Source of the DNA: a virus
DNA length: 64,000 nt
IMG/VR virus record: IMGVR_UViG_3300050821_009780
Coordinates: 62,001-126,000 of that record
Reading direction: 5' to 3' (one strand)
The notes below the pieces were generated by a model. That model had not been told where the DNA came from and made no database searches. It saw nothing but the letters and a program-made list of their open reading frames with translations. The translations under genes were made by a program, and so were the position numbers. Below, piece after piece: positions 6,149 through 62,994 of this stretch (position 1 is its first letter; each line of letters opens with the position of its first letter).

Positions 6149-6558
6149 CCGTCCTCCTCGTCGCCGCGGAAGACCCGGCCCTCGGCGGACAACCGCAGCG
6201 ACTCCTGCCGATCCTTCGCCAGCGCCTTCGCCTGGGCGGGGGAGACGTTGCCGCTGCACACCATATCCATGTACCGGTGCGCCGGGGTCTCCCCGCCCAG
6301 GTCCAGGGTCAGCTTCAGCAGCGCGCAGGGCTGCTCCTGCACCAGCGCGCAGGCGGTGACCGCGCCGGAGAAGCTGCGGCCCTCGGAGGGGCTGTCGAAG
6401 AACACCACCGGGTCGATGCCGCGCAGCCGGACGACCTCCGGCCGGGGCACCGGGAGCGTGTGGGCCTGCGGGCTGTCGGCGGACGTGACGATGCAGCCGT
6501 GCGGGAACAGGCGGTCGAACATCGCCTGGTACTTGCGGGCCTGCTCGGGAGGTTCCAT
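6145..6558 (-). CDS. Hypothetical protein (137 aa)
   Basis: Not recognised. ATG 6558 shares one base with the stop of the giant protein (TGATG). The protein begins MEPPEQARKYQAMFDRLFPH and contains a conserved-looking core (VVRLRGIDPVVFFDSPSEGR) followed by helices. No motif assigned. Because it directly follows the giant protein it could be a partner or chaperone, which is only inferred from position. Confidence 0.75.
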   Translation of the reverse strand: MEPPEQARKYQAMFDRLFPHGCIVTSADSPQAHTLPVPRPEVVRLRGIDPVVFFDSPSEGRSFSGAVTACALVQEQPCALLKLTLDLGGETPAHRYMDMVCSGNVSPAQAKALAKDRQESLRLSAEGRVFRGDEEDG

Positions 6559-9500
6559 CAGAACGGCGGACCTTCCCCTCCAGAAACAGCAGCATCCTTG
6601 GCTTCCTGAAGGGTATCGAAGGTACCGAGGTACTCAGTGCCATCGTAGGTCATGTAGCCCCCGTACGTGGCCTTCTCGACCTGCAGATCGCCGTTCTTCC
6701 AGGTGGGGTACGCCTCGCCGCCGCCCTTCACCCAGTTGAGGTCGGTGATCTGGCCGAGCAGCTCGCTGACCGTCGGCGGTGCGGCACCCGTCTCCTGGGC
6801 GGCCTGCTGCGCGGCGGCCTGGCCGGACTCGGCGGCCTGGGCGGACGGCTCGGTGGCCCCGGTGTACACCTGGGACTCGGCGAGCGGGTCGAGCAGCTCG
6901 GGGTGCGCGGCGAGGTTGGCCTTGACCTTGTCCACGGACGCCTTGCCGATGTGCTGGACAATCCTATCCTCGACGGGCAGGTAACGGATCTCGGTGATGC
7001 CGTGGTTCTTGAGGTAGGCGATGAGCTCGGCCCGGTCTTCCGCGTAGGACGACTGGACCAGCTCCACGTCGTCGAGCAGGGACAGCGCGTCGGAGATCAT
7101 GGTCTCGTTGCTGCCGCCGCTGTACTTGCGCCACACGTCCGGGTTCCAGTGGGCGTCCTTGCGCCGGTAGACGCCCTCGGCGCTGTACCCGCCCTCGCTG
7201 TACGGTATCTGGTTGCCGAAGTAGTCGTTGTCGTAGGAGTAGTTCCGGGTCCGGGCCAGGGTCAGCGGGCTGAACACGGCGGCGCGGTTATCGGTCACGT
7301 TGAGCCGGGTGAACACGTAGCCGGGGCCGCCGGACTCGTACGGGTTGCCGAGGCCGCCGGCCTCCGTCCCGGCCACCCGGATGAGGGCATCCTTGCCGTA
7401 TGACCCGCCTGCCTTGACGATGTAGGACGCAGCACTGCCGCTGCTGGACTGCCTGATGGGCATGGGCAGGCTCTTGACCTTCGCGGCCAGGTCGAACCGG
7501 TACCAGTCGGGCTTGCCGCCGACAACCGCCGGAGCGGTAGGGTCGAAGTGCTTCTGCCGGGGGAAGAAGCCGCCGCGCTCGGCCCAGTCCGCCACCTGCG
7601 CGGGGGAGGTCAGGGTGGCGAACGCGTCGCGGTACGCCCGCACCTCGGCCTGCGGGTCGGCCTTGCCCAGCGTCTCCAGTGCAGCGATGATCTTCCGGTG
7701 CTCGTTCTTGCCCGGCTTGGCGCCGCCGACAACCGGGTACGCCGTGCCCAGCCTCTCCTGCAGCACCTTCCACACCGGCTGGTCCTTGCTGTCCGCCCGA
7801 TCGTTCATGACGGACAGCAGGTGCCGCCAGTAGAACAGCTCGAAGTCGGGCACCTCGGCCTCGCGCATGTCCAGTCCGGCGAGCTGCAGGGCGGCGCGGA
7901 CGCGCTCCAGCGACGCGGCGCTGCCGTCCTTGCTGGTGAACCGGACGCGGCCCCAGTGGGAGACCTTGACGCCGGTGTCCTGGCCGTCGCCGAACTCGAT
8001 CTGCTCCCCGTCCGGCAGGGTCATCCGCCAGAACTTGCCGGGGTCCTGGTGCGCGCTGGTGTAGCTACCTGGGTTGAACTCGCCGGTGGTCTCGTCGATG
8101 CTGCCCTTGTCGTGCTTGGAGGCGGTGCCGGCCTGCAGCTTGATGCCGAGCGCGGACAGCTCATCCTTGACCTCGGGCTTGGGGGTGCTCTTCGGCAGCC
8201 AGCGGGGCAGATCGCCCTCGCCGAACCCGAACGAGCCTGCCTTGGCGTCCAGCACAGCCGCGATGTGCGACAGGTAGGTCTGGGCCATGTCGAGCAGGTT
8301 GCGGGACTGCTGAACCCCTGGGTCGGTGCTATCCGGGTGGGCACCGACCACGGCTTCTGCCGCCTGCTGCACCAGCTGCAGCTTCTGCTGCACCTCGGCC
8401 ATGGCGTCGAGCTTTCCCTGGTTGTACTGCCCGTCGGTCTTGTGCATGGTGACGCTGCGGGCCGCCGTGATGATCGTGTTGTAGTAGTTCTTTTCCCCGG
8501 CGAGGCCGCCGCGGTCGGGCGAATCGTACGGGGCCTTGCCGGGGCCGTAGCTGTCAGCCGGGTAGCTCACGGTGGTGTCGTCGGCGGGCGCGGCGTCCTT
8601 GCCGCTGTGGCTCTTGAGCCAGCCGATGACCTTGTCGTAGGCGGTGCCCTTGAGGAACGTCTCCCCGTGGGTGACCTTGGCTCCCTGGCCGTCGTTCTGC
8701 TGCCAGAGCAGCACGTGCATATCGCGCAGCTCGGGGCCGCCGAAGAACGCGGGGACGCCGTGGCTCTTGGCGGCGGCGACGTGGTCCAGCAGGCCCGGCT
8801 CGCTGAACCCGGAGTGCAGCGGGGCGCCGTGCGCGTCGGGGAGCCGCTGGACCGGGACCTCGGGCAGCCCGGTGACGCTGCCCTGCTTCAGCACCGGCTT
8901 GTCCGGGGGCAGCGCCTGCCATGCCTTGAGCGCGGCATCCAGGATCGCCTGGTCGCGGGCGGCGACGGTCTTGCTCTCGCTCTGCGCGAGGAGCTGCTTC
9001 GCCTCCTCCAGTGCCACCCATTTCGTCTGCTCGGTCTCCCCGTTGTCCAGCTCCGGGGTAGCGACCGCGCCCTCGGCCTTGGCCAGATAGAAGTAGGAGG
9101 TGGACTGGGTGCCGGTGAAGGCACCGGGCACGTAGCCGACCGGCTGGTACCTGGCGCCCATCTCCTCGGCGGTCTCCCGCACGGCGGCCTGCAGGGAGGT
9201 CTCGCCCGGATCGGCCCCGCCCTTGGAGAAGCTCCACGCGGTGCTGTTGTAGTGGTTCTTGACCTCGCGCAGCTGCACCTGGCCCTGATCGTTGAACACC
9301 ACCAGGCCGTAGCGGGGGTTGTGCCCGGGGGCATCGCCCCACGGGCTGCTCTTGCCGAAGTCGGAGGAGGCCCCGGCGTACCCGGCGTCCTGGTAGACCT
9401 GCGCCCACAGCTTGGTGAAGTCGTCTGCGAGGCTGTTCTTGCGGCGCAGCACCTCGTCGATGAGCGCCTGCCTGGACCCGAGGGAGCCGAACTTGGTGCG

Positions 9501-12500
9501 GTGCGCGAAGCCCTGCTCCAGGATGTTCTGCACGCTGGCGTCGGACACGTTCTGAATCTTGCGCGCCTGCTGGATGACCTGGAGGAACGCCTGGTCGGCA
9601 GCGTCCTTGGTGACCTGGTGGTTGCGGATGCCGTCGTACAGCCGGGTGTAGACGAGCTGGGTCATGGTGTCCATGGCGCTGGTGCCGGCCAGGCCGGGCC
9701 AGTCCATGTTGCCCCAGGCGCGGCCCTTGTCGATGCCGGCGATGTGCCCGTCCGGCGTCTTGATCATGTTGTTGGCGGAGCTGTCATCGTTGGACAGCAC
9801 CCAGTCGAGCAGGTGCTCGGACGCGATGTCGGCGACCTGCGCGGGGGTGAACGCGGACCAGGGCGGCAGGTCGGTGTAGTAGCCGAGCGGCTCGCCGGGG
9901 ATGGCCTTCTGCGCCTGCACCGGGCTGCCGCCGAACGCGGGGTCGGTCAGCAGCTGGGACTCGGCGGTCCGGAACCCGAACAGCTTGCCGAGCCGGTTGG
10001 CGGCGTGCTCCTGCTCCAGCCGGAACAGCCCGCCCCCGGCGCTGCTGGAGGGAGGCGCTGGCTTGACGTACCAGGTGCTGGTCTCCCCGGTGTAGGGGAT
10101 GGTCCTGGTGGCCTTCCACACCTCGTGCCCGTGGCTGGGCATATCCCCCGTGGGGATCTTCTTCCACACCGGGACGGACTGCTCGGCGACGGCCTTGACG
10201 TGCTCGTTATCGAGCCACTTCTGGATCGCCTGCTTCTTGTAGAAGGTGTAGTCCAGGACGTAGGCGAGGGTGTTGCCCATCTCGTCGGCGAGCTGCTGGA
10301 GGTAGGGGGTGACCTCGGCCTCGTGGTCGTCGGCGAACGCCTGCACAGCGGTCTCGGACCACTCGTCGGCGGGGGTGCTCGCCTGCACGTACGCGTCGTA
10401 GGCGTTGGCTGGCTGGAGGCCGTCGGTCCAGACGGGCGGCTCGGTCTTGGGAGACTGGCCCTGGCCGAACCGGTCGTTCGCGGTGCCGGTGAGCTGGTCC
10501 ACCGCAGCCTGGTCGTGGCCGCGGTGCGCCTTGACGACCATCTCCCGCTCGTAGGGGTACAGGTGCTCGGCGTGCTGGAAGCCCATTTTGATCAGGTAGT
10601 TGGCGACCTCTGCGGCGGGAAGGTTGGCCAGCCCGGCGGAGGACCAGGTGCCGGGGATGTCCTGGCTGGCCGGGACCTGGTGCGGGTCGAGCGGGGACCA
10701 GGTGACCTGGTGGGTTTCCGTGTTGTCCGGGGCTCCGGGGTGGGCGGGGGAGACCTTGCCGCCCTTGGCGTCCAGCTCGAAGACAGCCTTCATGTCCCCG
10801 GCCTTCCACGCCTTGGCCCACAGCAGGAGATCGTAAGCCGACAGTGAGGACAGGTGCGTGCCGACCACCTGGCCCTTGCCGAACTGCTGGGAAATGTCCT
10901 TGATCTTGGCGATGGTCTCAGTCTTGGTGCCGAGCATCCCCGAGTCGGGGAGGAACCCGGTGTAGGGCTGCGCCCAGCCCTGCGGGGTGAAGGTGAAGAT
11001 GTCCTTGGCAGAGGTGACGCCCTCCGGCATGGTCTTCAGGAAAACGGGGCCTTCGGACTTCTCTGCCTTGGCCGCCTTAGCCGGGACTGCGCCTGGTTCG
11101 ACCTTGCTGACCTCCGCGCCCTCCGGCAGTCCGGGCACGGCGAGCAGCTCGGTCAGCAGCCCGGTGACTGCGGCCTTCTGCTTGTCCCCGGTATCCCCCT
11201 GGTGGTCGGCCATGAACTGCTTGCCGAAGCCCTTGTAGCTGTTCCACTTGACGAAATCGTCCCCTGCCAGGAACTTCTGGAACTCCGGGACGAACTGCAG
11301 TCCCGGGCTGTTGTTCAGCGTGTCGAGCAGCGCCTGAATCTCGTCCCTGGTCTTGATATCGCTGCCCCAGATGTGGTAGCCCGTCGGCTTGGTCCCCGGC
11401 TCGACGACGGTGGTGCCATACTTGTCGAGTACGGTCCCGGACTGCATGAGCGCGTCTACCGTGTAGTCCGGGACGACATTCGGGGCGGCCCCGTCGTTGG
11501 ACTTCCACTGGGCGCTGCCATCGCTGAAGACGACAAGCTCCCCCGCTGTTTCCGGAGCCTTCCCGGCGCCGCTCCACAGTTTGAGGTCACTGGCAGGAGC
11601 CAGCACGGTGGCGTAGGCGACCTGGTCCGGGGGCTGCCCCGCCTGCGGGAACGGGACGCTTGAGTACTGGGTGGCCTTCTCCAGCTGCTTCGCGGCGGCG
11701 GCCGGAGTCAGCTCCTTGCTGCTGCCGTCGGTGGCGAAGTAGATGTACTTGCCCCACGCCTTGGTGCCGTACTTCCAGAAGTCGGAGTTGTAGCCGCCGA
11801 CCTTGACGGGCTGCACGTGCAGGTAGGACTTGCCCTTGGGGTTCTTCCAGTACCCGGCCCCGAACAGCTTGCCGTCCACGTTGACGGCGGCGGGCACGAC
11901 GTTCGCCTTGACCGCCTGCAGCAGCTGGTCCTGCAGCTCGGGCGACGGGGCCGCCAGGTCCCCGCCCTGCGGGTGGTAGGACACCTCCAGGGTCAGCGGG
12001 TTGACCTTGTAGTACTCGTCGGTGCTGCTCTGCAGGTACCCGCCGTGCCAGTTGCCGTACTCGTGCGAGATGTACTCGGTATCGCTGCCCTGGCTGCCCT
12101 TCTCGGCCAGCTTGTAGGCGGCGGCGAGCAGCCAGGTCGGGAAGAGCTTTTCGCTGCCGTGCTCGCTTATCGCCTGCCCGGCGGTCATGGCCCCGAACGA
12201 GACGGTCTTCAACGCGTCGGCGACCTCCTTGCCGTGCGCAGCCTCCTCGACGGACGGCGGCTCCTTCGGCGTCAGGGAACTACCGTTCAGGTCCTTATCG
12301 CTGACGTAGTACGACGGAGCCTTCTTGACCTGAGTGTTACCGCTGTAGCTCTGGATGTACCACCACTGACCGGACGGGTCGCGGGCATAGGCGCCACCGT
12401 AGGGTCCGGTCTTCTCGTAGACCACCGAGCCGGGCGGGAACTCCCCGACCAGCACCCCGCCCTTGAGGGCGGGCACGGGAGACTCGGCGGGCTTGTACGA

Positions 12501-14951
12501 CGGCTCGTCTGCCGGGATAGGGACCGGAGACCCTCCTGGCCCGAGTCCGGGTGCCTCCGGCTCCGGAGCAGCAGGCGGCTCCTCGGCGGGCTTGACGCCC
12601 TGCTTCAGGTAGAGCAGCACCGACTCCGGCTCGCGCGGGAACAAGGTGCCGCCCGGGGCGTGCATGAGCACCCGGTGGTCCGGGGTGACCTCGTAGAACA
12701 GCTCGCCGGGGGCACCGAGGGTGCCCTCAGTCGGCTTGGAGGTGGTGGTCTCCCAGCTGCCGGCGTCGTTCTTGTAGAGGTACTGCTTAGTATCCAGCGC
12801 GCTGGTGTAGACCAGCAGCCGGGCCAGGTGCTGGGCCAGGGTCGTCGCCTCGTGCGGGTTGTAGAGATCTGTCGGCTGAAGGTCGGTCAGCTTCTCGTCG
12901 ATCTCCTTCCACTGCGGGTTCTTCTTCCACTGCGCCGCCGTCGCCCAGTCCGGCAGCCGGGCGGCGGCGGACGGCTCGGGGGCCTGCTCCGCAGCGGCCT
13001 GGGACTTATCCTGCGCGGCCTCGGTCCCGCCCTGCGGCTCCAGCCAGATGTGCACAGCATTCCACAGCAGCGTGTCGGCGCTGGTCGGCTCGCCGCCGAA
13101 CATGTCGTGGTAAGTGGCCTTCAGCTGCGGGGTGACCTTGTAGTACGGCACACCATCTGGAGCAACCGGCTGGACTCCGAACTGGCCCGCCACGGGCGTC
13201 GTATAGTAGTCCTGGCCGAAGTCCGCGGCGTTCTGCGCGGCCTTGGCCATGGCACCATACGCAGTGCTGTACCAGCTCTTCTTGATGTTGCCGTTCTTGG
13301 CCAGGTCGTACAGCTCGGCGGCCTCGGTGTGCCCGGTGGCGTCGTCGGCCTTGGCGAGCAGCCCGGCCTTCTCGGTCAGCGCGGCGATGAACACCGTCTT
13401 GGCGTAGCCGAAGTGCTGCTGCTTGGTGCCCTTCTGCTGCGGCAGGTGCTCGGTATCGGGGTGCTGGTCCTCGTAGGCGTGGATGACGGCCCAGTAGTCG
13501 GACTCGGCGAGGGGGTTGCCCTTGGCCTTGAGCACCTGCTTGATCGCGGTGGACTTGGCGGCGGTCAGCGCGTCCACCGCATCCTGCACCTGCTCGGCGG
13601 TGGCGGTGACCCCGCCCAGCTCGAAGGTGTGCGGGGTGAGTAGCTGAGCGTGCTCCGCCTCGGCCTGCACCTTGTCCTGGGCGGCCTGCAGCGCATCCTG
13701 CTCGGCCTCGGTGTGCGCCAGGTGCGCGGCCCGCCCGGCCAGGTGGTGGATGACCGCCGACTTGACCTGCCCGACGTGCTCCTTCTTAGTGCCGGGAGCG
13801 ACCTTCAGCTCGGGGTGCTTGCTCAGTTCCTGCTGAGCTACCTGGTGGTAGTCCATCGCTGCCAGCGCGTGGCCGGCCTTGGCGAGGGGCTGCTTGACGG
13901 CGGTGGACTTGTCGTCCTGGAGGATTTTCAGGGCATGCTGGATCTCGTCCTTGGTGACGGCGAGCGGCGGGCCCTCCTTAGCAGCAACCTCGGCCTTAAG
14001 CTTGCCGGGCTGGCTCTCGCCAGGGACGGGCAGCGGCGCGTGCTGCTCCGCCTGGTCGTCGTCCGGGACAATGGCACCAGCCTTGAGCCAGGCGTCCTGA
14101 TGCTGCTCGGCTGGCTCCTTAACCACCTCGCCGCTGTGGAGCACAAGGTGCCAGGCACCTTGCGGGTCCTTAGCCCACTTGCCGTGCAGGTTCTTATCAT
14201 CCGCGTTGACTGCCTTGTAGACCTTCCAGTCAGCGGGTACCCAGGCGGCGTGCTTGCCGTTAAAGCTGACCGATTTCTGCGGCGGTGCCTCGTCCAGCTT
14301 CTTCCAGTGCTGGGCGAGGATCTCCTGAGCGGTCTTAGCGGTCGGCAGGGCCGACGAATCGGCCGGGTGGTCCGAGTGGAACAGGACGTGCTCGGCAGGC
14401 TTGCCGTCCTGATCCTTCTTGACGATAACCTTGGGCGCGGCCTTGACCGCCGCCGGGTTGTGCACGTCGGTGCTGTTCGGCACGTGCACATCGAGGTCCT
14501 TGTGCACGGCGAACTCGTGGTTGCCGGACTGGACCCACTTGTGGGTGCCGGCCTCGACCGCCTGGTGCGCGTCCTTGTCGGCCTTATCCGGGTCCTTCCA
14601 CTGGTTGGCGACCCACTTGGCCTCGGAGGTGTCGTAGATGAAGTGCGACGGAGCGCCCTTGACGTAGTGGGCGGTGCCGCCGTGCGCCTCGGAGGGAGCG
14701 TGCTGCGGGTGCGGGATGATCAAGCTGCCGATGGGGGCCTTGTAGAACGCCTCGCCGAGAGCGGAGGCGACCTTCTTCGGCGGCCCGTGCTGCCCCTGCA
14801 GCCCGGCAGCCTTCTGCGCGGCATCTTGGGCAGCCTCGGTGGTGGCTGCGGCCTGCTGGGCGATGGTGGCCCCGGGCAGCGCCGCAGCGGCGGGGTTGCC
14901 TGCCAGGTAAAGCAGCCCGAGCGTCAGGGCCTGCTGCTTCGTGAGGGCCAC
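6558..14951 (-). CDS. Giant multi-domain protein (2797 aa) with kinase-like and Nudix domains
   Basis: Start GTG 14951 with GGGGAG four bases upstream. The N-terminus has a module (HYVKGAPSHFIYDTSEAKW, about residues 92-110) also present in the zeta-domain protein. Helical repeats of about 80 residues begin near 330 and 449 (TKDEIQHALKIL, TAEQVQDAVDAL), with a weaker copy near 1200. Short Y-Y-K-V-x-P units recur. Residues about 1620-1850 resemble the HipA/PI3K-like kinase fold (VLSNDDSSANNM, GHIAGIDKGRAWG). Residues about 1880-1990 hold a complete Nudix box (GGADPGETSLQ, VRETAEEMGA). The C-terminal 700 residues are unassigned. It lies among head genes after the MuF-like gene and before the protease, so it is probably a virion protein carrying enzymes into the host, as described for polyvalent proteins. 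Delivery is inference. Confidence 0.85.
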   Translation of the reverse strand: MALTKQQALTLGLLYLAGNPAAAALPGATIAQQAAATTEAAQDAAQKAAGLQGQHGPPKKVASALGEAFYKAPIGSLIIPHPQHAPSEAHGGTAHYVKGAPSHFIYDTSEAKWVANQWKDPDKADKDAHQAVEAGTHKWVQSGNHEFAVHKDLDVHVPNSTDVHNPAAVKAAPKVIVKKDQDGKPAEHVLFHSDHPADSSALPTAKTAQEILAQHWKKLDEAPPQKSVSFNGKHAAWVPADWKVYKAVNADDKNLHGKWAKDPQGAWHLVLHSGEVVKEPAEQHQDAWLKAGAIVPDDDQAEQHAPLPVPGESQPGKLKAEVAAKEGPPLAVTKDEIQHALKILQDDKSTAVKQPLAKAGHALAAMDYHQVAQQELSKHPELKVAPGTKKEHVGQVKSAVIHHLAGRAAHLAHTEAEQDALQAAQDKVQAEAEHAQLLTPHTFELGGVTATAEQVQDAVDALTAAKSTAIKQVLKAKGNPLAESDYWAVIHAYEDQHPDTEHLPQQKGTKQQHFGYAKTVFIAALTEKAGLLAKADDATGHTEAAELYDLAKNGNIKKSWYSTAYGAMAKAAQNAADFGQDYYTTPVAGQFGVQPVAPDGVPYYKVTPQLKATYHDMFGGEPTSADTLLWNAVHIWLEPQGGTEAAQDKSQAAAEQAPEPSAAARLPDWATAAQWKKNPQWKEIDEKLTDLQPTDLYNPHEATTLAQHLARLLVYTSALDTKQYLYKNDAGSWETTTSKPTEGTLGAPGELFYEVTPDHRVLMHAPGGTLFPREPESVLLYLKQGVKPAEEPPAAPEPEAPGLGPGGSPVPIPADEPSYKPAESPVPALKGGVLVGEFPPGSVVYEKTGPYGGAYARDPSGQWWYIQSYSGNTQVKKAPSYYVSDKDLNGSSLTPKEPPSVEEAAHGKEVADALKTVSFGAMTAGQAISEHGSEKLFPTWLLAAAYKLAEKGSQGSDTEYISHEYGNWHGGYLQSSTDEYYKVNPLTLEVSYHPQGGDLAAPSPELQDQLLQAVKANVVPAAVNVDGKLFGAGYWKNPKGKSYLHVQPVKVGGYNSDFWKYGTKAWGKYIYFATDGSSKELTPAAAAKQLEKATQYSSVPFPQAGQPPDQVAYATVLAPASDLKLWSGAGKAPETAGELVVFSDGSAQWKSNDGAAPNVVPDYTVDALMQSGTVLDKYGTTVVEPGTKPTGYHIWGSDIKTRDEIQALLDTLNNSPGLQFVPEFQKFLAGDDFVKWNSYKGFGKQFMADHQGDTGDKQKAAVTGLLTELLAVPGLPEGAEVSKVEPGAVPAKAAKAEKSEGPVFLKTMPEGVTSAKDIFTFTPQGWAQPYTGFLPDSGMLGTKTETIAKIKDISQQFGKGQVVGTHLSSLSAYDLLLWAKAWKAGDMKAVFELDAKGGKVSPAHPGAPDNTETHQVTWSPLDPHQVPASQDIPGTWSSAGLANLPAAEVANYLIKMGFQHAEHLYPYEREMVVKAHRGHDQAAVDQLTGTANDRFGQGQSPKTEPPVWTDGLQPANAYDAYVQASTPADEWSETAVQAFADDHEAEVTPYLQQLADEMGNTLAYVLDYTFYKKQAIQKWLDNEHVKAVAEQSVPVWKKIPTGDMPSHGHEVWKATRTIPYTGETSTWYVKPAPPSSSAGGGLFRLEQEHAANRLGKLFGFRTAESQLLTDPAFGGSPVQAQKAIPGEPLGYYTDLPPWSAFTPAQVADIASEHLLDWVLSNDDSSANNMIKTPDGHIAGIDKGRAWGNMDWPGLAGTSAMDTMTQLVYTRLYDGIRNHQVTKDAADQAFLQVIQQARKIQNVSDASVQNILEQGFAHRTKFGSLGSRQALIDEVLRRKNSLADDFTKLWAQVYQDAGYAGASSDFGKSSPWGDAPGHNPRYGLVVFNDQGQVQLREVKNHYNSTAWSFSKGGADPGETSLQAAVRETAEEMGARYQPVGYVPGAFTGTQSTSYFYLAKAEGAVATPELDNGETEQTKWVALEEAKQLLAQSESKTVAARDQAILDAALKAWQALPPDKPVLKQGSVTGLPEVPVQRLPDAHGAPLHSGFSEPGLLDHVAAAKSHGVPAFFGGPELRDMHVLLWQQNDGQGAKVTHGETFLKGTAYDKVIGWLKSHSGKDAAPADDTTVSYPADSYGPGKAPYDSPDRGGLAGEKNYYNTIITAARSVTMHKTDGQYNQGKLDAMAEVQQKLQLVQQAAEAVVGAHPDSTDPGVQQSRNLLDMAQTYLSHIAAVLDAKAGSFGFGEGDLPRWLPKSTPKPEVKDELSALGIKLQAGTASKHDKGSIDETTGEFNPGSYTSAHQDPGKFWRMTLPDGEQIEFGDGQDTGVKVSHWGRVRFTSKDGSAASLERVRAALQLAGLDMREAEVPDFELFYWRHLLSVMNDRADSKDQPVWKVLQERLGTAYPVVGGAKPGKNEHRKIIAALETLGKADPQAEVRAYRDAFATLTSPAQVADWAERGGFFPRQKHFDPTAPAVVGGKPDWYRFDLAAKVKSLPMPIRQSSSGSAASYIVKAGGSYGKDALIRVAGTEAGGLGNPYESGGPGYVFTRLNVTDNRAAVFSPLTLARTRNYSYDNDYFGNQIPYSEGGYSAEGVYRRKDAHWNPDVWRKYSGGSNETMISDALSLLDDVELVQSSYAEDRAELIAYLKNHGITEIRYLPVEDRIVQHIGKASVDKVKANLAAHPELLDPLAESQVYTGATEPSAQAAESGQAAAQQAAQETGAAPPTVSELLGQITDLNWVKGGGEAYPTWKNGDLQVEKATYGGYMTYDGTEYLGTFDTLQEAKDAAVSGGEGPPF

Positions 14952-34460: not shown

Positions 34461-34732
34461 TGCGGTCTCCTGCCGATCGTGGTTCCCAGGAACACGTGCG
34501 CTGGGCTATCGGGTACGGGCGTGCTGGCCTTGCGCCGCACACCCTCCGGAATTCCCAGGGAGCAGCTGCCGGCGGCGGACTCGTCGGGCACCAGCTCGTA
34601 GCCGAACTCCATCTCGCACTGCGTGCAGCGCCAGTAGCAGAGCATGCCGCCCTCGGCCAGCTCCTCCTCCGGCTCGGCGGCGCCCCCGCAGTCGCTATCC
34701 AGGCAGGCGCGGTTCAGTTCGTAGCGTTCCAC
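34457..34732 (-). CDS. Zinc-ribbon-like protein (91 aa)
   Basis: GTG 34732, embedded in the end of the methyltransferase gene. ACLDSDCGG, then LCYWRCTQCEMEFGYELV give a zinc ribbon. Basic C-terminus (RRKASTPVP). Function unknown. Overlaps dnaX start by 4 bp. Confidence 0.7.
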   Translation of the reverse strand: MERYELNRACLDSDCGGAAEPEEELAEGGMLCYWRCTQCEMEFGYELVPDESAAGSCSLGIPEGVRRKASTPVPDSPAHVFLGTTIGRRPQ

Positions 34733-35859
34733 GGCAGCCTCTCCAGCAGGATGAGCAGGGCCAGCACGGCCTGCCGCGGAACGACCCCGTTGCCGAGGAT
34801 CTTCAGCTGGGCGTTGCGGGACAGGCCGTCCACCCCGGTGACCCAGCCCTCCGGCAAGCCGAGCATCCACTCCACGAAGACGGGGGCGAGCACGCGGTTG
34901 CCCTTGCTGCCCGGCTCCAGCGGGTGCGGCACCATCCGGCCGGTGACCTGCTGCCAGCGCAGGACGGCCCGGGAGTACTTGCCCCAGTCCACCACCGGGC
35001 CGCTGCCCAGGTGCTCGGCCAGGCCAGGGAGCAGCAGCTCCCCGCTGCGTGCCCCGGAGCGGTTCCTGTGGCCTCCGGTCACGTCGGCGACCTGCGGGGT
35101 GGGCAGGAGCGCGCCGGCCAGGGTCGGGTTACCGCGCTTGTACGCCAGGCTGCGCCGCTCCCCGTCAGCAGCTGCCGGGGTGGGGAGAAGGCTGCCCCCG
35201 GTGCCCATCATGTCGTTCTCCACCATGATCCGCAGGTCGGTGACCGAGGTGCGGCCCGGCTTCTTGCGCAGGTGGTTCTCCGGGGTGTTCTGGCTGTAGC
35301 TGGCGACCGGGGTGGGCAGCAGCTCGTGCTCGGCCTGGTCGGCGAGAGTGGGGCCGTGGCCGCCGGCCCGGCGCTTATCCGGGTGCTGGCTGCCGCCGTT
35401 GACGGCGAGCTGCGCGGTGGGGGTCTTCAGCAGACTGACCGCCTCGGGCAGGTCCGCGTCCGCTGCGGTGCGCGCCCGGCCGTCCCTGCGGACCCGGCCC
35501 ACCGACACGGTAGGGCCCTTGTGGTCGCTGGCCTGCGGGGTGGGCAGCATGGACAGCGTCTCGATGAGGGTGCCGCCCTCGCGGGCCTTGGCGGGGGTGA
35601 CCAGTCCGCCGTTACTGCCCAGCGTCGCCGAGGGCGTCGGGAGCAGCAGGCCATGCGGTGATGAAGATCCGCTCCCGCCGGTGGCAGGACCCGGCATCTG
35701 AGGCGCGTACATTCTGCCATTCCGCATCGTACCCGAGGGTGGAAAGGTCTCCGAGAACAGCTCCGAGTGCCCGCAGAGCATGTCCTGCCCTTTTTCCCAG
35801 ACAGATCTCGCAGGATTCCACGTCGCTATGGGCGGAGGCAGAGCATATCCCTCGGACAT
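34714..35859 (-). CDS. Cytosine-5 DNA methyltransferase, target-recognition/C-terminal part
   Basis: 381 residues from ATG 35859. It lacks the catalytic motifs. The first part (PPPIATWNPARSVWEKGQ, SETFPPSGTMRNGRMYAP) and the repeated LLPTP units (LLPTPSATLGSN, SMLPTPQASDHKGPT, LLPTPVAS, LLPTPQVAD) are typical of the target-recognition half of actinophage Dcm proteins. The C-terminus (VEWMLGLPEGWVTGVDG, RNAQLKILGNGVVPRQA) is motifs IX-X. With the gene at 35612 it makes a complete enzyme. The two frames overlap by 248 bp, and both look coding there. Confidence 0.85.
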   Translation of the reverse strand: MSEGYALPPPIATWNPARSVWEKGQDMLCGHSELFSETFPPSGTMRNGRMYAPQMPGPATGGSGSSSPHGLLLPTPSATLGSNGGLVTPAKAREGGTLIETLSMLPTPQASDHKGPTVSVGRVRRDGRARTAADADLPEAVSLLKTPTAQLAVNGGSQHPDKRRAGGHGPTLADQAEHELLPTPVASYSQNTPENHLRKKPGRTSVTDLRIMVENDMMGTGGSLLPTPAAADGERRSLAYKRGNPTLAGALLPTPQVADVTGGHRNRSGARSGELLLPGLAEHLGSGPVVDWGKYSRAVLRWQQVTGRMVPHPLEPGSKGNRVLAPVFVEWMLGLPEGWVTGVDGLSRNAQLKILGNGVVPRQAVLALLILLERLPWNATN

Positions 35860-36193
35860 TTTCGATTACCACCAGTTCCGGCCGGAGAATTCCGATTGCG
35901 TAAGCCATGTACGTCCACACGCCGCTGCGGGTGCCGGGGCGCAGCCCGGCCCGCTGGCCGGCGCAGGACACGTCCTGGCAGGGGAACCCCCCGCAGAAGA
36001 TGTCCACCGGCTCGACCTGGTCCCACTCCACGGTGCTGATGTCGCCCAGGTTCGGCACGTCCGGGTAGCGCTGCTTGAGCAGCAGGGACACATCCGGGTC
36101 GTTGTCGGCAACCCAGGCCAGCTCGGCGCCGAACACGGCCTCGACGGCCCCGTCCAGGCCGGCGTAGCCGGTGCAGGCCGACCCGAGCCTCAC
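35612..36193 (-). CDS. Cytosine-5 DNA methyltransferase, catalytic part
   Basis: 193 residues from GTG 36193 in a GTGA overlap. SACTGYAGLDGAVEAVFG is motif I, DIFCGGFPCQDVSCAG motif IV with the catalytic Cys, ELVVIENVRG motif VI (ENV), and HRRERIFITA motif VIII. Then the frame stops (GDAGQ). It carries motifs I-VIII only; the rest is in the overlapping gene at 34714. Whole enzyme methylates C5 of cytosine, likely to resist host restriction. A two-subunit enzyme like M.AquI or a frameshifted gene are the two readings. Confidence 0.88.
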   Translation of the reverse strand: MRLGSACTGYAGLDGAVEAVFGAELAWVADNDPDVSLLLKQRYPDVPNLGDISTVEWDQVEPVDIFCGGFPCQDVSCAGQRAGLRPGTRSGVWTYMAYAIGILRPELVVIENVRGICSASAHSDVESCEICLGKRAGHALRALGAVLGDLSTLGYDAEWQNVRASDAGSCHRRERIFITAWPAAPDALGDAGQ

Positions 36194-36480
36194 CGGTGCC
36201 CCGCCACCCAGCGGTGATGCGCAGCCCGGACCCTCATGTGACGCGGCAGGGTAACAGTCATGATGGACTGCCAGCCGTTCCTCTTGGCCCGGAACCCGTA
36301 GGACGGCGGATCGCACATGGTGCAGAGCCAGCGCCACGGGTACTCTCCCCAGCCGTGGCTCTCAGCGTAGCCGCCCTTGCCGTAAAGGATGAACCGATCG
36401 CGCCAAACATAGAACCTGCGCTCGGTCGGGCGCCGGTAGTTCGTGCTGGGCGGGTTACGCCAGCTGGTCTGGATTTTCAC
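36190..36480 (-). CDS. Hypothetical protein (96 aa), aromatic-rich
   Basis: Not recognised. GTG 36480 (VKIQTSWRNPPSTNYRRPTE). Rich in Trp, Tyr and Arg (RFYVWRDRFILYGKGG, WGEYPWRWLCTMCDPP) with one C-x2-C. Looks like a small folded basic domain. Overlaps neighbours by 4-26 bp. Confidence 0.7.
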   Translation of the reverse strand: MKIQTSWRNPPSTNYRRPTERRFYVWRDRFILYGKGGYAESHGWGEYPWRWLCTMCDPPSYGFRAKRNGWQSIMTVTLPRHMRVRAAHHRWVAGHR

Positions 36481-36780: not shown

Positions 36781-39700
36781 TTATACGAGCCTGCTGAGGC
36801 CGACCGCGAAACCGGACGCTCCCAGCTCGTCCCGGCAGCGGGGGCAGTAGTCCATATCGAACACCTCGCCGAGCAGCCCGGCCGGGACGGCGGTGCCGCA
36901 GCCGATGCACACCGGGCGCAGCAGGCTGCCCTGGAGCGGGTCGGCACCGTCGAAGAACGCGAGCCGACGGGCGGTGTAGCGCATAGCATCCACCCAGGAC
37001 TTCTTGCCGCACAGCGGAGCGTACGCCTGGTAGGGGCCGAGCTTGCCGTTGAGGATCATGCGCAGCAGCAGCCGATCAGCGTCGCGGACCAGCCAGGCGT
37101 CGGCGATGTGATCCTTGGCGTTGGCCTCCTCGGCGCTCATGCCGGAGTAGAAACTTTCCTGTTTGAGCAGCACCCGCACCTCGGGAGCCTCATCGTAGGC
37201 GCGCAGGGCGGCGGCGAGGGCCTGCTCGCCTCCCGCCACCTCCAGCTCCCAGAAGGATTTGGGGGTCGCCGGAAGCTGGGACTCCTTGGGGTAAAGCATC
37301 CAGCTCTGAAGGGCCAGCCACGGGTCCAGCTCCGCCTTGAACCAGGCGATGAAATTGTTCATCTTGTGCGGCTGACGGGTGAGGCCGAACTCGGCGTAGT
37401 CCGTCCCGGCACTGCGGTCGCGGAACTTGTAGGCATCGCTGACGATGCGGACCGACCGCTTGGCGATGGGCGGGAACCCCTCGGTGTGCTCCTGGGCGCG
37501 GTAGGCGGCGCGGCGGATGGCGAACTTCCAGTGCGCGTTCGACACGAACCGGTGCTTCTCCGACCGTTCGTACCGGAACCGGACCTTGCACGCGACGGTG
37601 GTCTGATCGAGGGGGCGGACCGGCCGGGCCTCCAGGTCGCGGTCGGTCGCCTTGAGGTAGCCCTGGCGGATCTTCAGGTCGGTCTTGTCGCAGCAGCCGC
37701 AGGTGTTGCCGGAGCAGTGCTGGTCGCAGCGGGCAATCCACTCGCTGCCGCGGTAGCTCTCGTCGAACTGCTCGTCGTAGCTCTCGCTGTCGGTTCCCTC
37801 CAGGAACTGCACCATGTGCCGGTAGGCGCCCCACATGAGCTGCTTGGAGACGCCGGTGTCGATGTGCTCCCAGCCGAACAGGTCGTCCTCGCCCATCTCC
37901 AGGAACAGGTCGTCCAGCCCGTTGCGGAACCCGTGGTTCTTCAGCGCGGCGTTGAGCCGGTCCTTCATGTCCTTGGCGACGCCGCCCCAGCAGCCGGCGG
38001 CGAGGTCCTCGATCACGTCGGTGATGGCCTCCCCGGCGTCGCGGCTGGCCCGCTGGCACGCCTGGAACAGGGCGATCTTCTCCGGCTGGGCCTTGCTGCC
38101 GAGCTTCATCTCGATCCGCTGGTCGCGGAGGTCGGCCATGGCCTGCTGGAGGGTGTAGTCGGGGGCGGTGGGGGCGAACCACTGCATGGGGGTCTGCGCC
38201 TCGATGAGCAGCGGCGTCCAGGAGAACTGGATCCGCACGCCGGGCTGGCCGAGCTGCTCGCGGATCTCTGCCAGCCGCTGGCCGAGCCTGACGATCCGCA
38301 TGACATCCCCCGCTTCCTCGCCGGGCATGTTGGAGATCATGAACAGCTTGACCTTGCGGATGCCGGCCCGGATGGCACGGGTGACGGCCTCCTCGACGTC
38401 CTGGTCGGAGACGCCCTTGCCGATCAGGTCGCGCATCCGCTGGCTGTTGCCCTCCAGGCCGAGGGTGACCGCATCGGTACCGCCGAAAGCGAGCAGCATG
38501 GAGTAATCCGGGTCGCCGATGAAGTCATCTACCCGCATCGCCCCGGTATCCACCTCGTCGGACACCTGCTCCAGCAGCCCGCCGAGCAGCTCCTTCTTGC
38601 GGGTGTACATGGGGAAGTCGGGGCCGTAAGGAGACAACTCGTTCGATCCCATGTTGAGCCGCCACTGCCTGGCCTGCTCGATCAGGTACTCCACGCTGTG
38701 CTCGCGGTAGGGCTTGTCCACGTAGGTGAGGTGGCAGTTCATCGTAAACACGCCGTCCGCCAGCGAGAAGCGGTGCGAACCCGGCACAGTCAGGCAGTAG
38801 ACCTCCTGCGGCTTGTCCAGCGGCTCGATGGCCTCAACGCACCACCCGTGCCTTTCCGGCTTGACCAGGGTGTGCTGCATGAGCGGAGCGCTACGCGGCC
38901 CGAAGTTGGTTACGTCGGAACGGCTCTGACAGCAACCGACGTACACCCAGCCTCCCTGCGCAGCGTGTCGCTCCAGCCACTGGCTGGGAGACGTGTCGCC
39001 ATGGTGCTGAGCACTGTACTGCGCAGCAAGAACATAAGAGGTCTCCTTAGCACGCAGGGTGCCATCTGCGGCAAGCCAGCCTTCCAGGAACCCAGCTACG
39101 TAAGCGGTATCAACTGCGGGCGAAGGCCATGACTTGACATCGAAGGCGGCCCACCCATAGACCACAACATCACCCTTGGCGTAATCCGGGTTCTGAATGG
39201 AACTGACCCGGAGGTCAGGGCGGACAGCCCAAGAATCCCGGTCGTCCTGGTCAGGCTGCCAAAACTTCTCGAACCAAGGCCGAACGGCGGCGTCCTTGCC
39301 AAACAGGCGCACCTTGAAGGAACCCGACAGCACAGGCCGCCGTTCACCGGTAGAGAGCTTCCGCTGGTGGCCGTCCCCGAACAGGAACCCGTGCACCCGG
39401 CCGAGGTCGTAGCTCGACCCGTCGTACTGCACCGAGGCAGCAGCAGCAGGCACAAAGTCTCCAGCCCGTAGCGCATGCGTCTCCGTACCATCTACCAGCT
39501 CCCAGCCATGCGCCGCAGTGGCTGTGACCTGAACCCGATGCGTGGCCTTGGGGTTACGTCGCCAGGCTCCGTTCGCCGTTCCGCAGTCGGCGGGACGGAA
39601 GGTGATGCGCTGCACCGCCTGGACCCCGTGCGACTCTACGGTAGCGCTAGCCCAAGCCGCGCCATCCCAGACCTCAGCCTTCCCGACCCCGTGCAACCAG

Positions 39701-40659
39701 TCGATGGATGAGATGCCCCACTCGCGAGACAAAACCTGAGTCTCCCCGATCAACGGGAAGCTGCACCAGGCCGGGCAGCCCTTGCCTGCCTCGATGTCCC
39801 CCGCGCCCATGCCCGGGTCGGAGTACAGCAGCGGGGCCTGGGTGTGCGGGGCGGCGCTGTCCAGGTCCTTGACGTACCGCTTCTTGAACCTGACCGCCGG
39901 GCCGCCGAGCGCCGTAGGGCCGGACCACCCGCTCACCAGCTTGGTCGGCTCGGGCAGCCCGCGGTCCTCGTACCTGTAGCCGAACTCCACCTCGCGGGGG
40001 AAGTACAGGAACGGGAACTCCACCGCCAGCATCCGGTAGCACATGGACCGCTCGGCCCGCCACAGGCCGTCCGCCTTCATGTCCGCGATGGCTTCCATGA
40101 CCACCGAGATGCCGGGGTTGCCGGGGGCGTCCTCGGCCTCGCCGAGGAAGACGCAGTCCACTACCGGGGCCATGAACTCGGGGTGGCTCCACGCCTGCCC
40201 GCCGGCCATGACCATGGGGTAGGCACCCGGGTCACCCAGGCGGTCGCGCCAGCGCAGCGGGATGCCACTTACCCGGAGGTACTGGCAGAAGTTGAGCCAG
40301 AGGACGGTGTAAGAAATAGAAGTAGCGAAGACGTCGAAGTCCTGTACGCCGTGCTTGGTCTCAATCCCGAAGACAGGTAGACCCGCCCGCTCCAGCAGGC
40401 GGAAGTCACGTGGGGTGGCAGGCAGGTAGAAACGGTCACAGAGCGCTCCAGGAGAGTCGTTGACGCACCGGTAGACGACCGGGGTGGAGTTGTTCCCCGC
40501 CGCCTGCATGTACGGCCAGGAGGCCGCCAGGAGCATGCGGACGGACGCCTGGTCCCACGGCTTACGGACGGAGCCCGGCTCGTCGCCCAGGTATGCCTCG
40601 GGGCCGTCCAGCTTCCACAGATTGCCGTCCAGCCAGCGCTGGATATGCCCAGGGTCCAC
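36781..40659 (-). CDS. Radical SAM protein interrupted by an intein (1292 aa precursor)
   Basis: GTG 40659. The extein (952 residues after splicing) has a B12-domain-like N-terminal part (SISYTVLWLNFCQYLRVSGI, PMVMAGGQAWSHPEFMAPVV, VFLGEAEDA), then the [4Fe-4S] motif. In the precursor only CPAWCSF is continuous; joining it to CHLTY after removal of residues 302-641 restores C-x3-C-x2-C. The middle is the radical SAM barrel (LLAFGGTDAVTLGLEGNSQR, RKVKLFMISNMPGEEAGD). A Cys-rich segment (CDQHCSGNTCGCCDK) and a C-terminal zinc ribbon (CIGCG, DYCPRC) follow. It would cleave SAM to make a radical; target unknown. A terminator follows the gene. Confidence 0.87.
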   Translation of the reverse strand: MDPGHIQRWLDGNLWKLDGPEAYLGDEPGSVRKPWDQASVRMLLAASWPYMQAAGNNSTPVVYRCVNDSPGALCDRFYLPATPRDFRLLERAGLPVFGIETKHGVQDFDVFATSISYTVLWLNFCQYLRVSGIPLRWRDRLGDPGAYPMVMAGGQAWSHPEFMAPVVDCVFLGEAEDAPGNPGISVVMEAIADMKADGLWRAERSMCYRMLAVEFPFLYFPREVEFGYRYEDRGLPEPTKLVSGWSGPTALGGPAVRFKKRYVKDLDSAAPHTQAPLLYSDPGMGAGDIEAGKGCPAWCSFPLIGETQVLSREWGISSIDWLHGVGKAEVWDGAAWASATVESHGVQAVQRITFRPADCGTANGAWRRNPKATHRVQVTATAAHGWELVDGTETHALRAGDFVPAAAASVQYDGSSYDLGRVHGFLFGDGHQRKLSTGERRPVLSGSFKVRLFGKDAAVRPWFEKFWQPDQDDRDSWAVRPDLRVSSIQNPDYAKGDVVVYGWAAFDVKSWPSPAVDTAYVAGFLEGWLAADGTLRAKETSYVLAAQYSAQHHGDTSPSQWLERHAAQGGWVYVGCCQSRSDVTNFGPRSAPLMQHTLVKPERHGWCVEAIEPLDKPQEVYCLTVPGSHRFSLADGVFTMNCHLTYVDKPYREHSVEYLIEQARQWRLNMGSNELSPYGPDFPMYTRKKELLGGLLEQVSDEVDTGAMRVDDFIGDPDYSMLLAFGGTDAVTLGLEGNSQRMRDLIGKGVSDQDVEEAVTRAIRAGIRKVKLFMISNMPGEEAGDVMRIVRLGQRLAEIREQLGQPGVRIQFSWTPLLIEAQTPMQWFAPTAPDYTLQQAMADLRDQRIEMKLGSKAQPEKIALFQACQRASRDAGEAITDVIEDLAAGCWGGVAKDMKDRLNAALKNHGFRNGLDDLFLEMGEDDLFGWEHIDTGVSKQLMWGAYRHMVQFLEGTDSESYDEQFDESYRGSEWIARCDQHCSGNTCGCCDKTDLKIRQGYLKATDRDLEARPVRPLDQTTVACKVRFRYERSEKHRFVSNAHWKFAIRRAAYRAQEHTEGFPPIAKRSVRIVSDAYKFRDRSAGTDYAEFGLTRQPHKMNNFIAWFKAELDPWLALQSWMLYPKESQLPATPKSFWELEVAGGEQALAAALRAYDEAPEVRVLLKQESFYSGMSAEEANAKDHIADAWLVRDADRLLLRMILNGKLGPYQAYAPLCGKKSWVDAMRYTARRLAFFDGADPLQGSLLRPVCIGCGTAVPAGLLGEVFDMDYCPRCRDELGASGFAVGLSRLV
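38737..39756 (-). mobile_element. Class 3-type intein with LAGLIDADG homing endonuclease (340 aa)
   Basis: Inserted between SF and CHLT of the radical SAM iron-sulfur motif. It begins PLIGETQVLSREWG, so residue 1 is Pro, not Cys or Ser. Block B has T-x2-H-G-W (W85 of the intein), block F reads VYCLTVPGSHRFSLADG with Cys (C321) in place of the usual Asp, and it ends FTMN with Thr before Met-Asn (T338, N340) and +1 Cys. That W-C-T set defines class 3 inteins, which use the block F Cys as nucleophile. Two LAGLIDADG-like motifs (VHGFLFGDGH near precursor residue 420, VAGFLEGWLAADGT near 520) mark a homing endonuclease. Lower third-position GC than the extein supports horizontal transfer. Confidence 0.9.
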
Positions 40660-40923: not shown

Positions 40924-41123
40924 TACAGGTCTTCCCGGTGCACTTCGAGGATGCGGTTCCGCAGCTCGCGCTCCAGCTTCTCCAGGCCGAAGCTATCCAC
41001 CTGGTGGAGCACGACGAACTTGCTGCCGCGCGTGAGCCCGTCGCCGTGGAACCGCGCCACGTCCCGGACAATATCCCACTCGGGATTGTTCTTCGGGTGA
41101 TCCAGCTTGATGCGGAACTTCAC
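40923..41123 (-). CDS. Hypothetical protein (66 aa)
   Basis: Not recognised. GTG 41123 (VKFRIKLDHPKNNPEWDIVR), in a GTGA overlap with the SbcC-like half. LTRGSKFVVLHQVDSFGLEK looks beta-rich. No known motif. Confidence 0.7.
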   Translation of the reverse strand: MKFRIKLDHPKNNPEWDIVRDVARFHGDGLTRGSKFVVLHQVDSFGLEKLERELRNRILEVHREDL

Positions 41124-41767
41124 TCGGACTCCCCCTCGTGGACCTCGGTCACCCCGTCCGCCCCTAGTACAAGGCGGTAACGTGCGTCGGCCAGGTCACC
41201 GAAGGCCGTGCTGTGCGTGACGAGCAGGATCTGCACTCCAGCCTTGTCAGCGACCTCACGCAGGAACTCGGCCACCCGAGGCTCATAGGACGCTGAGACG
41301 TGGGCAAATGACTCGTCCAGTGCCAGAAAGCGGCGCGCTCCCGGGGTGAGCAGGAGCACGACCAGCCGTAGAACGAATCCCACGACAGCAGCCATCCCTC
41401 CGCCCCGGGCATCCAGCACTGGAGTCTCGACCACGTCATCTCCGTAGCTGCTCCTGATCACGAAGTCCACCTCGGCGCGGTTCGCCTTAACGGACGGGAC
41501 CATGTGGAAGGTCAGGTTCTCGGAGAAGATCACCTGCAGCGCCCGGGTGACCAGCCCCTCGACCTGCTGCCGGGCGGATTCCTGGCGCTCCTCGCCGATG
41601 GTGGTGAGCAGCGCGCACGCCTTCTCGTGCAGCTCCTGGGCGGCGCGCAGCTCGCGGACCCGCTCCTGAGCCTCCTTGCCCTGCCGGGCCACCTGGGCGG
41701 CCTGCCCGGCCTCCCGGTCCAGGCCCCGCTGCACCTGGGCCAGGCGCGCGGACAGCGCAGGAATCAC
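41120..41767 (-). CDS. SbcC/Rad50-like ATPase, C-terminal half (215 aa)
   Basis: GTG 41767 in a GTGA overlap. A coiled-coil start (LSARLAQVQRGLDREAGQAA, KEAQERVRELRAAQELHE) leads to an ABC/SMC-type head: the signature-like DARGGGMAAVVGFVLRLVVL, Walker B RFLALDESFAHVS and VQILLVTHSTAF (H-loop). There is no P-loop here; it is in the gene at 48856, which ends at a zinc hook. Together they would rebuild one SbcC/gp46-type ATPase that works with the SbcD-like nuclease at 45909. Confidence 0.82.
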   Translation of the reverse strand: MIPALSARLAQVQRGLDREAGQAAQVARQGKEAQERVRELRAAQELHEKACALLTTIGEERQESARQQVEGLVTRALQVIFSENLTFHMVPSVKANRAEVDFVIRSSYGDDVVETPVLDARGGGMAAVVGFVLRLVVLLLTPGARRFLALDESFAHVSASYEPRVAEFLREVADKAGVQILLVTHSTAFGDLADARYRLVLGADGVTEVHEGESE

Positions 41768-41970
41768 TGCCCTCCGCCGATCCAGATGCCCTTCTTCTGC
41801 GGGGAACAGCACGAGCACCGGGCCCGCCTGACGGTACCGTCCTCCGCAACTATCAGCGGCAGTCCCTCGTGGCTGTGCGCCTTGGAGGAGTGCTCCTTGT
41901 GCTTCAGCCTGCGCCGCTGCGCCGGGGTGGGGCTGCTGCCGTACAGCTTCGCGCGCTCTTCATGCGTCAT
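41764..41970 (-). CDS. Small basic Cys-containing protein (68 aa)
   Basis: ATG 41970 (MTHEERAKLYGSSPTPAQRR). Basic helix (RLKHKEHSSKAHSHEG), VRRARCSCCSPQKKG. Not recognised. Ends GGAGGGCAGTGA, where the GGAGG serves the next gene, so translation is coupled. Confidence 0.7.
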   Translation of the reverse strand: MTHEERAKLYGSSPTPAQRRRLKHKEHSSKAHSHEGLPLIVAEDGTVRRARCSCCSPQKKGIWIGGGQ

Positions 41971-61872: not shown

Positions 61873-62994
61873 CTATGGCTCCGTGTACAGGCGGCGCACG
61901 GCAGCGAGCACGGTATCTACGGCTGCGGCGTCCAGGCCCTTAACGTGCCAGAGTTCGGCCTCCAGCAGCTCCTCACGGGTGAGATCGGGTTCCGGAGCTG
62001 CCGGGGCAGGCAGATACCCCTTCTTCCGGTCCACGCCCTCCAGGACAGAGCCCTCGTACTTCCAGCCGGGCGCAGCCTCGGCGAGCATCCGCTCCAGCCG
62101 GTGGATGACGGCGCGCTTGACATGGTCGGCGGGCTTCTTGTGCGTCTGCTGGTCCATCCCGCACTCCGGGTACAGCTCGCGCTCGGCCCTGGAGAACGAG
62201 TGGTACCAGCCCTTGGGGGCCTCCAGCTGGAGACGGTGGGCGGCCAGCGGGCGGTGCACGTGGTTGCCCTTGGCATCCCTGAGCAGCTCGACGGCCTCGC
62301 GCACCTCGGCAGCGGTCAGCTCCACGCCCTCGACGTTGAACTTCTCCTGCGCAGGAGCGGCCATCCCGTCGCGCACCGCCTGCCCCAGCTCGCGCATGGC
62401 CCGGCCGGCCTGGTTCCGGCTGAGGCCGAGGCGGCTCAGCGGCGGAACGGCACCATCTTCCTTCAGGTGCCCGGCGATCTCGCTGAACAGCGAGAAGAGA
62501 CTGACCGGGCCGTCCCAGTCGTCCGGCACGGTCGCCAGGTAGTCCCTCATCCGGCCGACGAACTGATCGTCGGCCAGCGACGGGTAGTCATCCCAGCTCT
62601 CGCCACCGAACAGCTCCACCCAGCGGGAGCCGCCCTCGCCGGCGACCGTATCGCACAGCAGCAGCTCGCGCCCGGAACGCCGGGAGACCTGCTCGCGCTT
62701 GCCTCGCATGTACAGCGCCACCTTGCCGGACAGGAACGCCCGCCAGGAGACGCGCTGCCCGGTCTTGGCACTGACGAACGAGGAGTCGTACTGCCGGAGG
62801 GCGTTGCGGCCCTCGGCGTTCACCGCGACCAGGAGCCGCTCCATTATGTCGGCAGCGGCGTCCTCCGCATCCTGGGTGTTGCCCCCAGCGCCCAGCAGCT
62901 TCCGCGCCAGGCCCTGAACGTACGCACCATCCTGCCGGAAAAACTCGTCCGCATCTGCGGGCGCGGCATACTTGCCGAAATCACCCATCCCCAT
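61873..62994 (-). CDS. Probable RNA polymerase sigma factor (373 aa)
   Basis: ATG 62994 preceded by GGTGGTGGGAG. Residues about 15-110 follow the sigma region 2 pattern: DEFFRQDGAYVQGLARKLL, TQDAEDAAADIMERLLVAV, SWRAFLSGKVALYMRGKREQ. Residues about 175-215 resemble region 4 (LSRLGLSRNQAGRAMRELGQ, a helix-turn-helix). Extra C-terminal 160 residues are unassigned. It follows its own palindromic promoter. It may redirect host polymerase to phage promoters. Fold assigned by pattern only. Confidence 0.68.
   Translation of the reverse strand: MGMGDFGKYAAPADADEFFRQDGAYVQGLARKLLGAGGNTQDAEDAAADIMERLLVAVNAEGRNALRQYDSSFVSAKTGQRVSWRAFLSGKVALYMRGKREQVSRRSGRELLLCDTVAGEGGSRWVELFGGESWDDYPSLADDQFVGRMRDYLATVPDDWDGPVSLFSLFSEIAGHLKEDGAVPPLSRLGLSRNQAGRAMRELGQAVRDGMAAPAQEKFNVEGVELTAAEVREAVELLRDAKGNHVHRPLAAHRLQLEAPKGWYHSFSRAERELYPECGMDQQTHKKPADHVKRAVIHRLERMLAEAAPGWKYEGSVLEGVDRKKGYLPAPAAPEPDLTREELLEAELWHVKGLDAAAVDTVLAAVRRLYTEP

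Follow-up and report, generated by a model that had tools for sequence, protein, structure and literature searches.

Class 3 inteins are recognized by the absence of a nucleophile at position 1, together with a Trp in block B (B:12), a Cys in block F (F:4) and a Thr in block G (G:5), hereafter the WCT set (PMC3196547; PMC5050341; PMC7891396). A count of such inteins gave 1701, of which 82.5% had LAGLIDADG motifs (PMC7891396). With a Cys at the +1 position, only the Bvi IcmO intein was known in 2016 (PMC5222942). The present analysis concerns a window of 64,000 nucleotides of viral DNA (positions 62,001 to 126,000 of the 143.5-kb IMG/VR record IMGVR_UViG_3300050821_009780), to which all coordinates below refer, and a radical SAM gene in it that is interrupted by an insert of 340 residues. 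This insert is very probably a full-length intein (a Hint domain with a nested LAGLIDADG endonuclease) in a TIGR03960-like radical SAM protein of a phage, where it directly precedes the third cluster cysteine. Like the MP-Bethlehem DnaB, Msm DnaBi1 and Bvi IcmO inteins, it has no nucleophile at position 1, carries Trp B:12, Cys F:4 and Thr G:5 and is associated with a phage. In contrast, these class 3 inteins usually have Ser or Thr at +1 and His at the penultimate position; they are absent from the trees described below.

MoaA is a radical SAM enzyme. The intein of Pyrococcus abyssi MoaA, for which redox control has been published, resembles that of the window by its host and by a Cys of the N-extein at position -3. 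However, it is archaeal and begins with Cys1, and the bond between Cys-3 and Cys1 is impossible in the window's intein. The AceL NrdHF intein is also a class 3 intein from a phage-like contig and also lacks the penultimate His, yet splices well; it differs in being split, without endonuclease, and in having Met in place of the Trp. Also close are the inteins in NrdD (anaerobic ribonucleotide reductase) of Morganella phage MP1, Klebsiella phage FBKp34 and Vibrio phage V6Aob, which belong to the same family and are 23-29% identical to the window's intein along its entire length. They share with the window's intein the Hint and LAGLIDADG domains, the His-x-Trp motif, the block F Cys, Thr G:5, the Asn end and Cys at +1, and they too are inserted before a functional cysteine. 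They differ by Cys1, a penultimate Gly and the host protein. The kind of element is known; the host, the insertion site and the loss of Cys1 in a family that otherwise has it were not met before in the material searched. The literature searched, which was covered in part, contained no description of a phage radical SAM protein with an intein at this site. After archaeal MoaA, the host would be the second type of intein-bearing radical SAM enzyme, and here the cluster site itself is split.

Position of the insert and intein-free homologues

The precursor is encoded by a single open reading frame (ORF) without internal stops (Table 1). Pfam Radical_SAM_N2 is recognized in its N-terminal part (E-value 4e-25) and Pfam Radical_SAM beyond the insert (E-value 9e-10), both over cut-off. 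Among full-length families, TIGR03960 fits best; its members are B12-binding radical SAM proteins without an assigned function. Because the score (165 bits) is below the curated cut-off (462 bits), the host protein is named TIGR03960-like only.

Table 1. Coordinates of the precursor gene, its parts and the residues discussed in the text
Feature	Position in window	Strand	Support
Whole precursor ORF, radical SAM protein interrupted by the putative intein (1292 amino acids)	36781-40659	-	Pfam matches
N-extein, residues 1-301, ending CPAWCSF with the first two cluster cysteines	39757-40659	-	
Putative intein, 340 amino acids, Pro1 to Asn340 (precursor residues 302-641)	38737-39756	-	gap-free homologues, family alignment, model, fold search
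C-extein, residues 642-1292 and stop	36781-38736	-	
Cluster cysteines Cys295 (39775-39777, position -7) and Cys299 (39763-39765, position -3 relative to the splice site)	39763-39777	-	
Cys642, putative +1 splicing nucleophile and third [4Fe-4S] cysteine	38734-38736	-	
Block B, Thr80-x2-His83 (B:10)-Gly-Trp85 (B:12)	39502-39519	-	T80, H83 and W85 invariant in alignment A2
Block F, Cys321 (F:4) in VYCLTV, proposed initiating nucleophile	38794-38796	-	invariant in alignment A2
Block G, Thr338 (G:5), Met339 (G:6), Asn340 (G:7)	38737-38745	-	family alignment
LAGLIDADG-like helix 1, residues 114-130, with Asp128	39367-39417	-	model helix 114-128; Asp128 conserved
LAGLIDADG-like helix 2, residues 217-233, with Asp231	39058-39108	-	model helix 217-231; Asp231 invariant

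The insert lies in frame, immediately before the third cysteine of the radical SAM [4Fe-4S] motif. The original prediction had already placed it in this frame, as the 340 residues from Pro302 to Asn641, and these limits hold. The junctions of the precursor read GCPAWCSF/PLIGETQVL...GVFTMN/CHLTY, where a slash marks each splice site. Joining the flanks gives CPAWCSFC, a C-x3-C-x2-C motif that occurs only once in the 952-residue extein. The protein therefore has, besides its domain, the cysteine motif of the radical SAM superfamily, as was also predicted, but this motif is complete only once the insert is removed.

Three intein-free homologues are continuous at the site, where they read CDNWCVFC, CVRGCRFC and CVRGCRFC (L002, L045 and L046, respectively). 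The first, from another viral contig, is 55% identical to the host protein and passes through the site uninterrupted as GCDNWCVFCKLGW. The other two come from fecal phages, are more distant and have GCVRGCRFCQAG here. Since the homologues run through the site without a gap, the segment is an insertion and not a domain of the host family. Its boundaries agree from two sources, namely the intein alignment, in which residue 1 of the relatives falls on Pro302, and the gap-free alignment of the exteins. Other searches with the host were negative: Megablast of the precursor gene against phages gave no match, and no relatives came from a scan of viral contigs with the N-extein as single protein or from a scan of genome contigs with the whole precursor.

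Homology to inteins and catalytic residues

Several lines of evidence identify the insert as an intein. With the insert alone, tblastn finds the inteins of phage NrdD genes (E-value 7e-12), and TIGR01443 (intein_Cterm) is found in the precursor with 15.9 bits for a cut-off of 15.6. A search of the PDB by phmmer with the single intein gave no match and a family profile was needed; this profile matches solved inteins, including DnaE (E-value 2.8e-8), DnaB, VMA, PI-PfuI and PI-SceI, as well as LAGLIDADG endonucleases. An AlphaFold model of the insert has a mean predicted local distance difference test score (pLDDT) of 81 and a predicted template modelling score of 0.83. The best PDB matches of this model in Foldseek are the TliVMA, PI-SceI, PhoVMA and PI-PfuI inteins (E-values 5e-10 to 3.5e-8, probability 1.00), in agreement with a Hint fold, and intein-bearing phage ribonucleotide reductases are among its best viral structure matches. 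Splicing blocks A, B, F and G, a terminal Asn and a +1 nucleophile can all be recognized. A failure of these blocks to match inteins had been named beforehand as an outcome that would count against the prediction; they do match, by sequence profile and by predicted fold.

The catalytic residues, numbered from Pro1 of the insert, make a complete class 3 signature. Position 1 is Pro and thus not Cys, Ser or Thr; the WCT set consists of Trp85, two residues after the block B His83, Cys321 and Thr338; the insert ends with Asn340 and is followed by a nucleophile, Cys642, the rare choice at this position. All members of the W-C-T set are where the original prediction had seen them, and Met339 does replace the penultimate His. 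In phage inteins, penultimate residues other than His are common and functional (PMC5050341). A zinc-ribbon intein of the same family, L016, likewise ends in TMN. Met at this position is therefore not unusual among phage inteins. As judged from its sequence, the insert is a class 3-type intein, and the earlier assignment is supported to this extent. A search at the DNA level for the ends typical of canonical class 3 inteins had one match only, judged to be chance, and no recognisable IcmO intein was seen within the stretches of pBVIE04 inspected.

A family of inteins with Cys1 and the block F Cys

A scan of viral contigs with the intein as single protein found no relatives. With an alignment of four sequences including the phage NrdD inteins, 21 viral loci were found, and a later family scan added three bacterial loci. 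Among the hosts are class II ribonucleotide reductases, NrdD, a DUF5906 protein and, as read from the sequence by eye, zinc-ribbon proteins and a GMC-type oxidoreductase. His83, Trp85, Cys321 and Asn340 are invariant in the alignment (A2) and Thr338 is present in 16 of the 19 sequences aligned. The conservation of the Trp is partly selected for, as His-x-Trp (TxxHxW) was part of the search patterns; the block F Cys and Cys1 were not. Every relative in the family alignment begins with Cys1, the window's intein, with Pro1, being the sole exception. Cys1 is also found in the three bacterial loci and in more distant actinophage, coliphage and cyanophage inteins.

The relatives inspected combine Cys1 with Trp B:12 and Cys F:4, mostly with Thr G:5; the family therefore holds both possible initiating nucleophiles. 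Mixed signatures of this type, with WCT and a nucleophile at position 1, were reportedly already discussed by Tori and Perler in 2011, so that no novelty is claimed for them. In outgroup-rooted trees, which left out the canonical DnaB class 3 inteins, the window's intein stands within or beside the Cys1 family on a long branch; its nesting inside the family is not significant (approximately unbiased test, p = 0.07 and 0.22). Because the outgroup inteins also start with Cys, except for the Val1 intein L013_b2, Pro1 is most simply regarded as derived. Canonical class 3 inteins make up a monophyletic DnaB/TerL clade. It may be tentatively imagined, as one course among others and not the favoured one, that the class 3 mechanism had an origin of its own here, independent of the DnaB class 3 clade: with the second nucleophile already in place, the simple loss of Cys1 would have sufficed, without an inactive intermediate. 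This separate origin is a proposal rather than a result. The window's intein offers a natural example of a possible passage from class 1 to class 3 chemistry, and in a dual-nucleophile family with one member devoid of Cys1 the question can be put to a direct test by exchanging single residues.

Some of the loci collected deserve mention in their own right. A phage class II ribonucleotide reductase (L013:3566-7153) contains two inteins. The second starts with Val (NAP/VHGDTRVLT) and has the block F Cys without the class 3 Trp and Thr; by its sequence it is a non-WCT intein lacking the first nucleophile. A proteobacterial ribonucleotide-reductase-like ORF (L031:3458-7888) also has two inteins in one gene, ending in TGN and TGQ. 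The inteins L016:3660-4628, L022:3656-4645 and L023:653-1636 directly precede the first Cys of CPFC zinc-ribbon-like motifs. Insertion next to a functional cysteine, which follows the intein and is then used as the +1 nucleophile, seems to be favoured in the family. The closely related Gordonia phages L037:2022-5141 and L036:2013-5081 have the same terminase gene interrupted by different inteins at different sites, in one case after GIGVGK and in the other after EGYNVL.

Proposed splicing route and alternatives

The intein reading draws on the insert itself, its homology, its predicted fold, its catalytic residues and the intein-free homologues; from these we infer splicing by the class 3 route. 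The N-S acyl shift of class 1 is impossible because position 1 is Pro. Instead, Cys321, aided by His83 and Thr338, would attack the Phe301-Pro302 bond to form a branched thioester. The N-extein would then be transferred to Cys642, cyclisation of Asn340 would free the intein, and an S-N shift would leave CPAWCSFC. The three cluster cysteines would be in register only after splicing, and the enzyme should therefore be inactive before. As Cys642 and Cys299 are 343 residues apart in the precursor sequence, a normal three-cysteine cluster site is unlikely at that stage, and the unspliced form would lack its cluster.

A few observations weigh against this reading. The +1 residue is Cys, while class 3 inteins mostly have Ser or Thr; Pfam Intein_splicing alone reaches 13.5 bits for a cut-off of 35.8; the loop of residues 168-179 is poorly predicted (pLDDT under 50); and the nearest kin all have Cys1, which raises the possibility of a decayed class 1 intein with poor splicing. 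In such a case, Cys1 would have been lost to Pro and the enzyme would be mostly dead. The presence of Cys1 in every inspected relative would be accounted for, and a pseudogene is known among the published class 3-like inteins (PMC3196547). However, the reading frame and the extein are intact, as are all other catalytic residues and the two aspartates of the endonuclease, and the class 3 Trp, Cys and Thr are present to take over, so that decay appears improbable and the intein is apparently intact. Still less credit can be given to a class 2-like route, with a direct attack of Cys642 on the N-junction and Cys321 as a mere helper. Cys at +1 with a non-nucleophilic residue 1 does recall the KlbA inteins (PMC4031507), but the WCT set is complete and F:4 is Cys, not the Asp required by class 2 inteins (PMC4031507). 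Lastly, the insert might be an ordinary domain that stays in the radical SAM protein; the single open frame would allow it, and homologues keeping the insert as such a domain were the other adverse outcome named beforehand. This idea is refuted by the alignments and its probability is negligible: the insert is absent, gap-free, from three homologues, it splits the cluster motif and it is homologous to inteins in unrelated host proteins.

Another proposal, already raised in the original prediction, is compatible with a class 3-type intein and concerns its role. The insert would be not only a parasite but a redox switch delaying activation of an oxygen-sensitive enzyme. In the P. abyssi MoaA intein, a Cys-3/Cys1 disulfide blocks splicing under oxidising conditions (PMC3922620; PMC10663303). 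In the class 3 intein Msm DnaBi1, a demonstrated oxidant sensor, splicing halts when the block F Cys engages in a disulfide (PMC6195587). In the window, Cys299 likewise stands at -3, and a disulfide of Cys299 or Cys295 with Cys321 or Cys642 would be possible. However, the trap of MoaA, made of Cys-3 and Cys1, cannot form with Pro at position 1, the other cysteines of the intein (58, 275, 276 and 306) are not conserved in its kin, and an intact endonuclease fits a plain parasite. Such a switch would be plausible and not without precedent; we consider it rather unlikely. A Cys306-Cys321 disulfide was dropped: Cys306 is not conserved and, along its strand, alternates with the positions of the conserved core.

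Endonuclease and genomic setting

The two LAGLIDADG-like motifs noticed in the original prediction, GFLFGDG and GFLEGWLAADG, correspond to two helices with catalytic acids in a matching predicted fold. In the relatives, which exceed the cut-off of Pfam LAGLIDADG_3, Asp128 is conserved (Glu once) and Asp231 is invariant. The putative endonuclease would cut intein-free alleles and so spread the gene. The third-position GC of the intein (0.73) is low compared with that of the exteins (0.90 and 0.93) and falls within about the lowest 1% of the 340-codon windows that 22 phage ORFs provide, in keeping with an acquired segment. The whole viral record showed no further intein of this type.

The radical SAM gene sits in a replication block of this record, with a sliding clamp, a cold-shock protein and an ATPase on one side and DNA methyltransferases and a clamp loader on the other. 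The L002 homologue also follows an ATPase-like ORF, which by eye resembles the ATPase ORF of the window (41120-41818). On the minus strand, the ORF 34714-35859 overlaps, in another frame, with the ORF 35612-36337, and the two match different parts of DNA methyltransferase families; the region 34714-36337 corresponds either to a frameshifted or split methyltransferase gene or to a sequence error. Finally, the ORF 6558-14951, on the minus strand (2797 amino acids), has long antisense ORFs, as expected in GC-rich DNA, and probably encodes a large structural protein.

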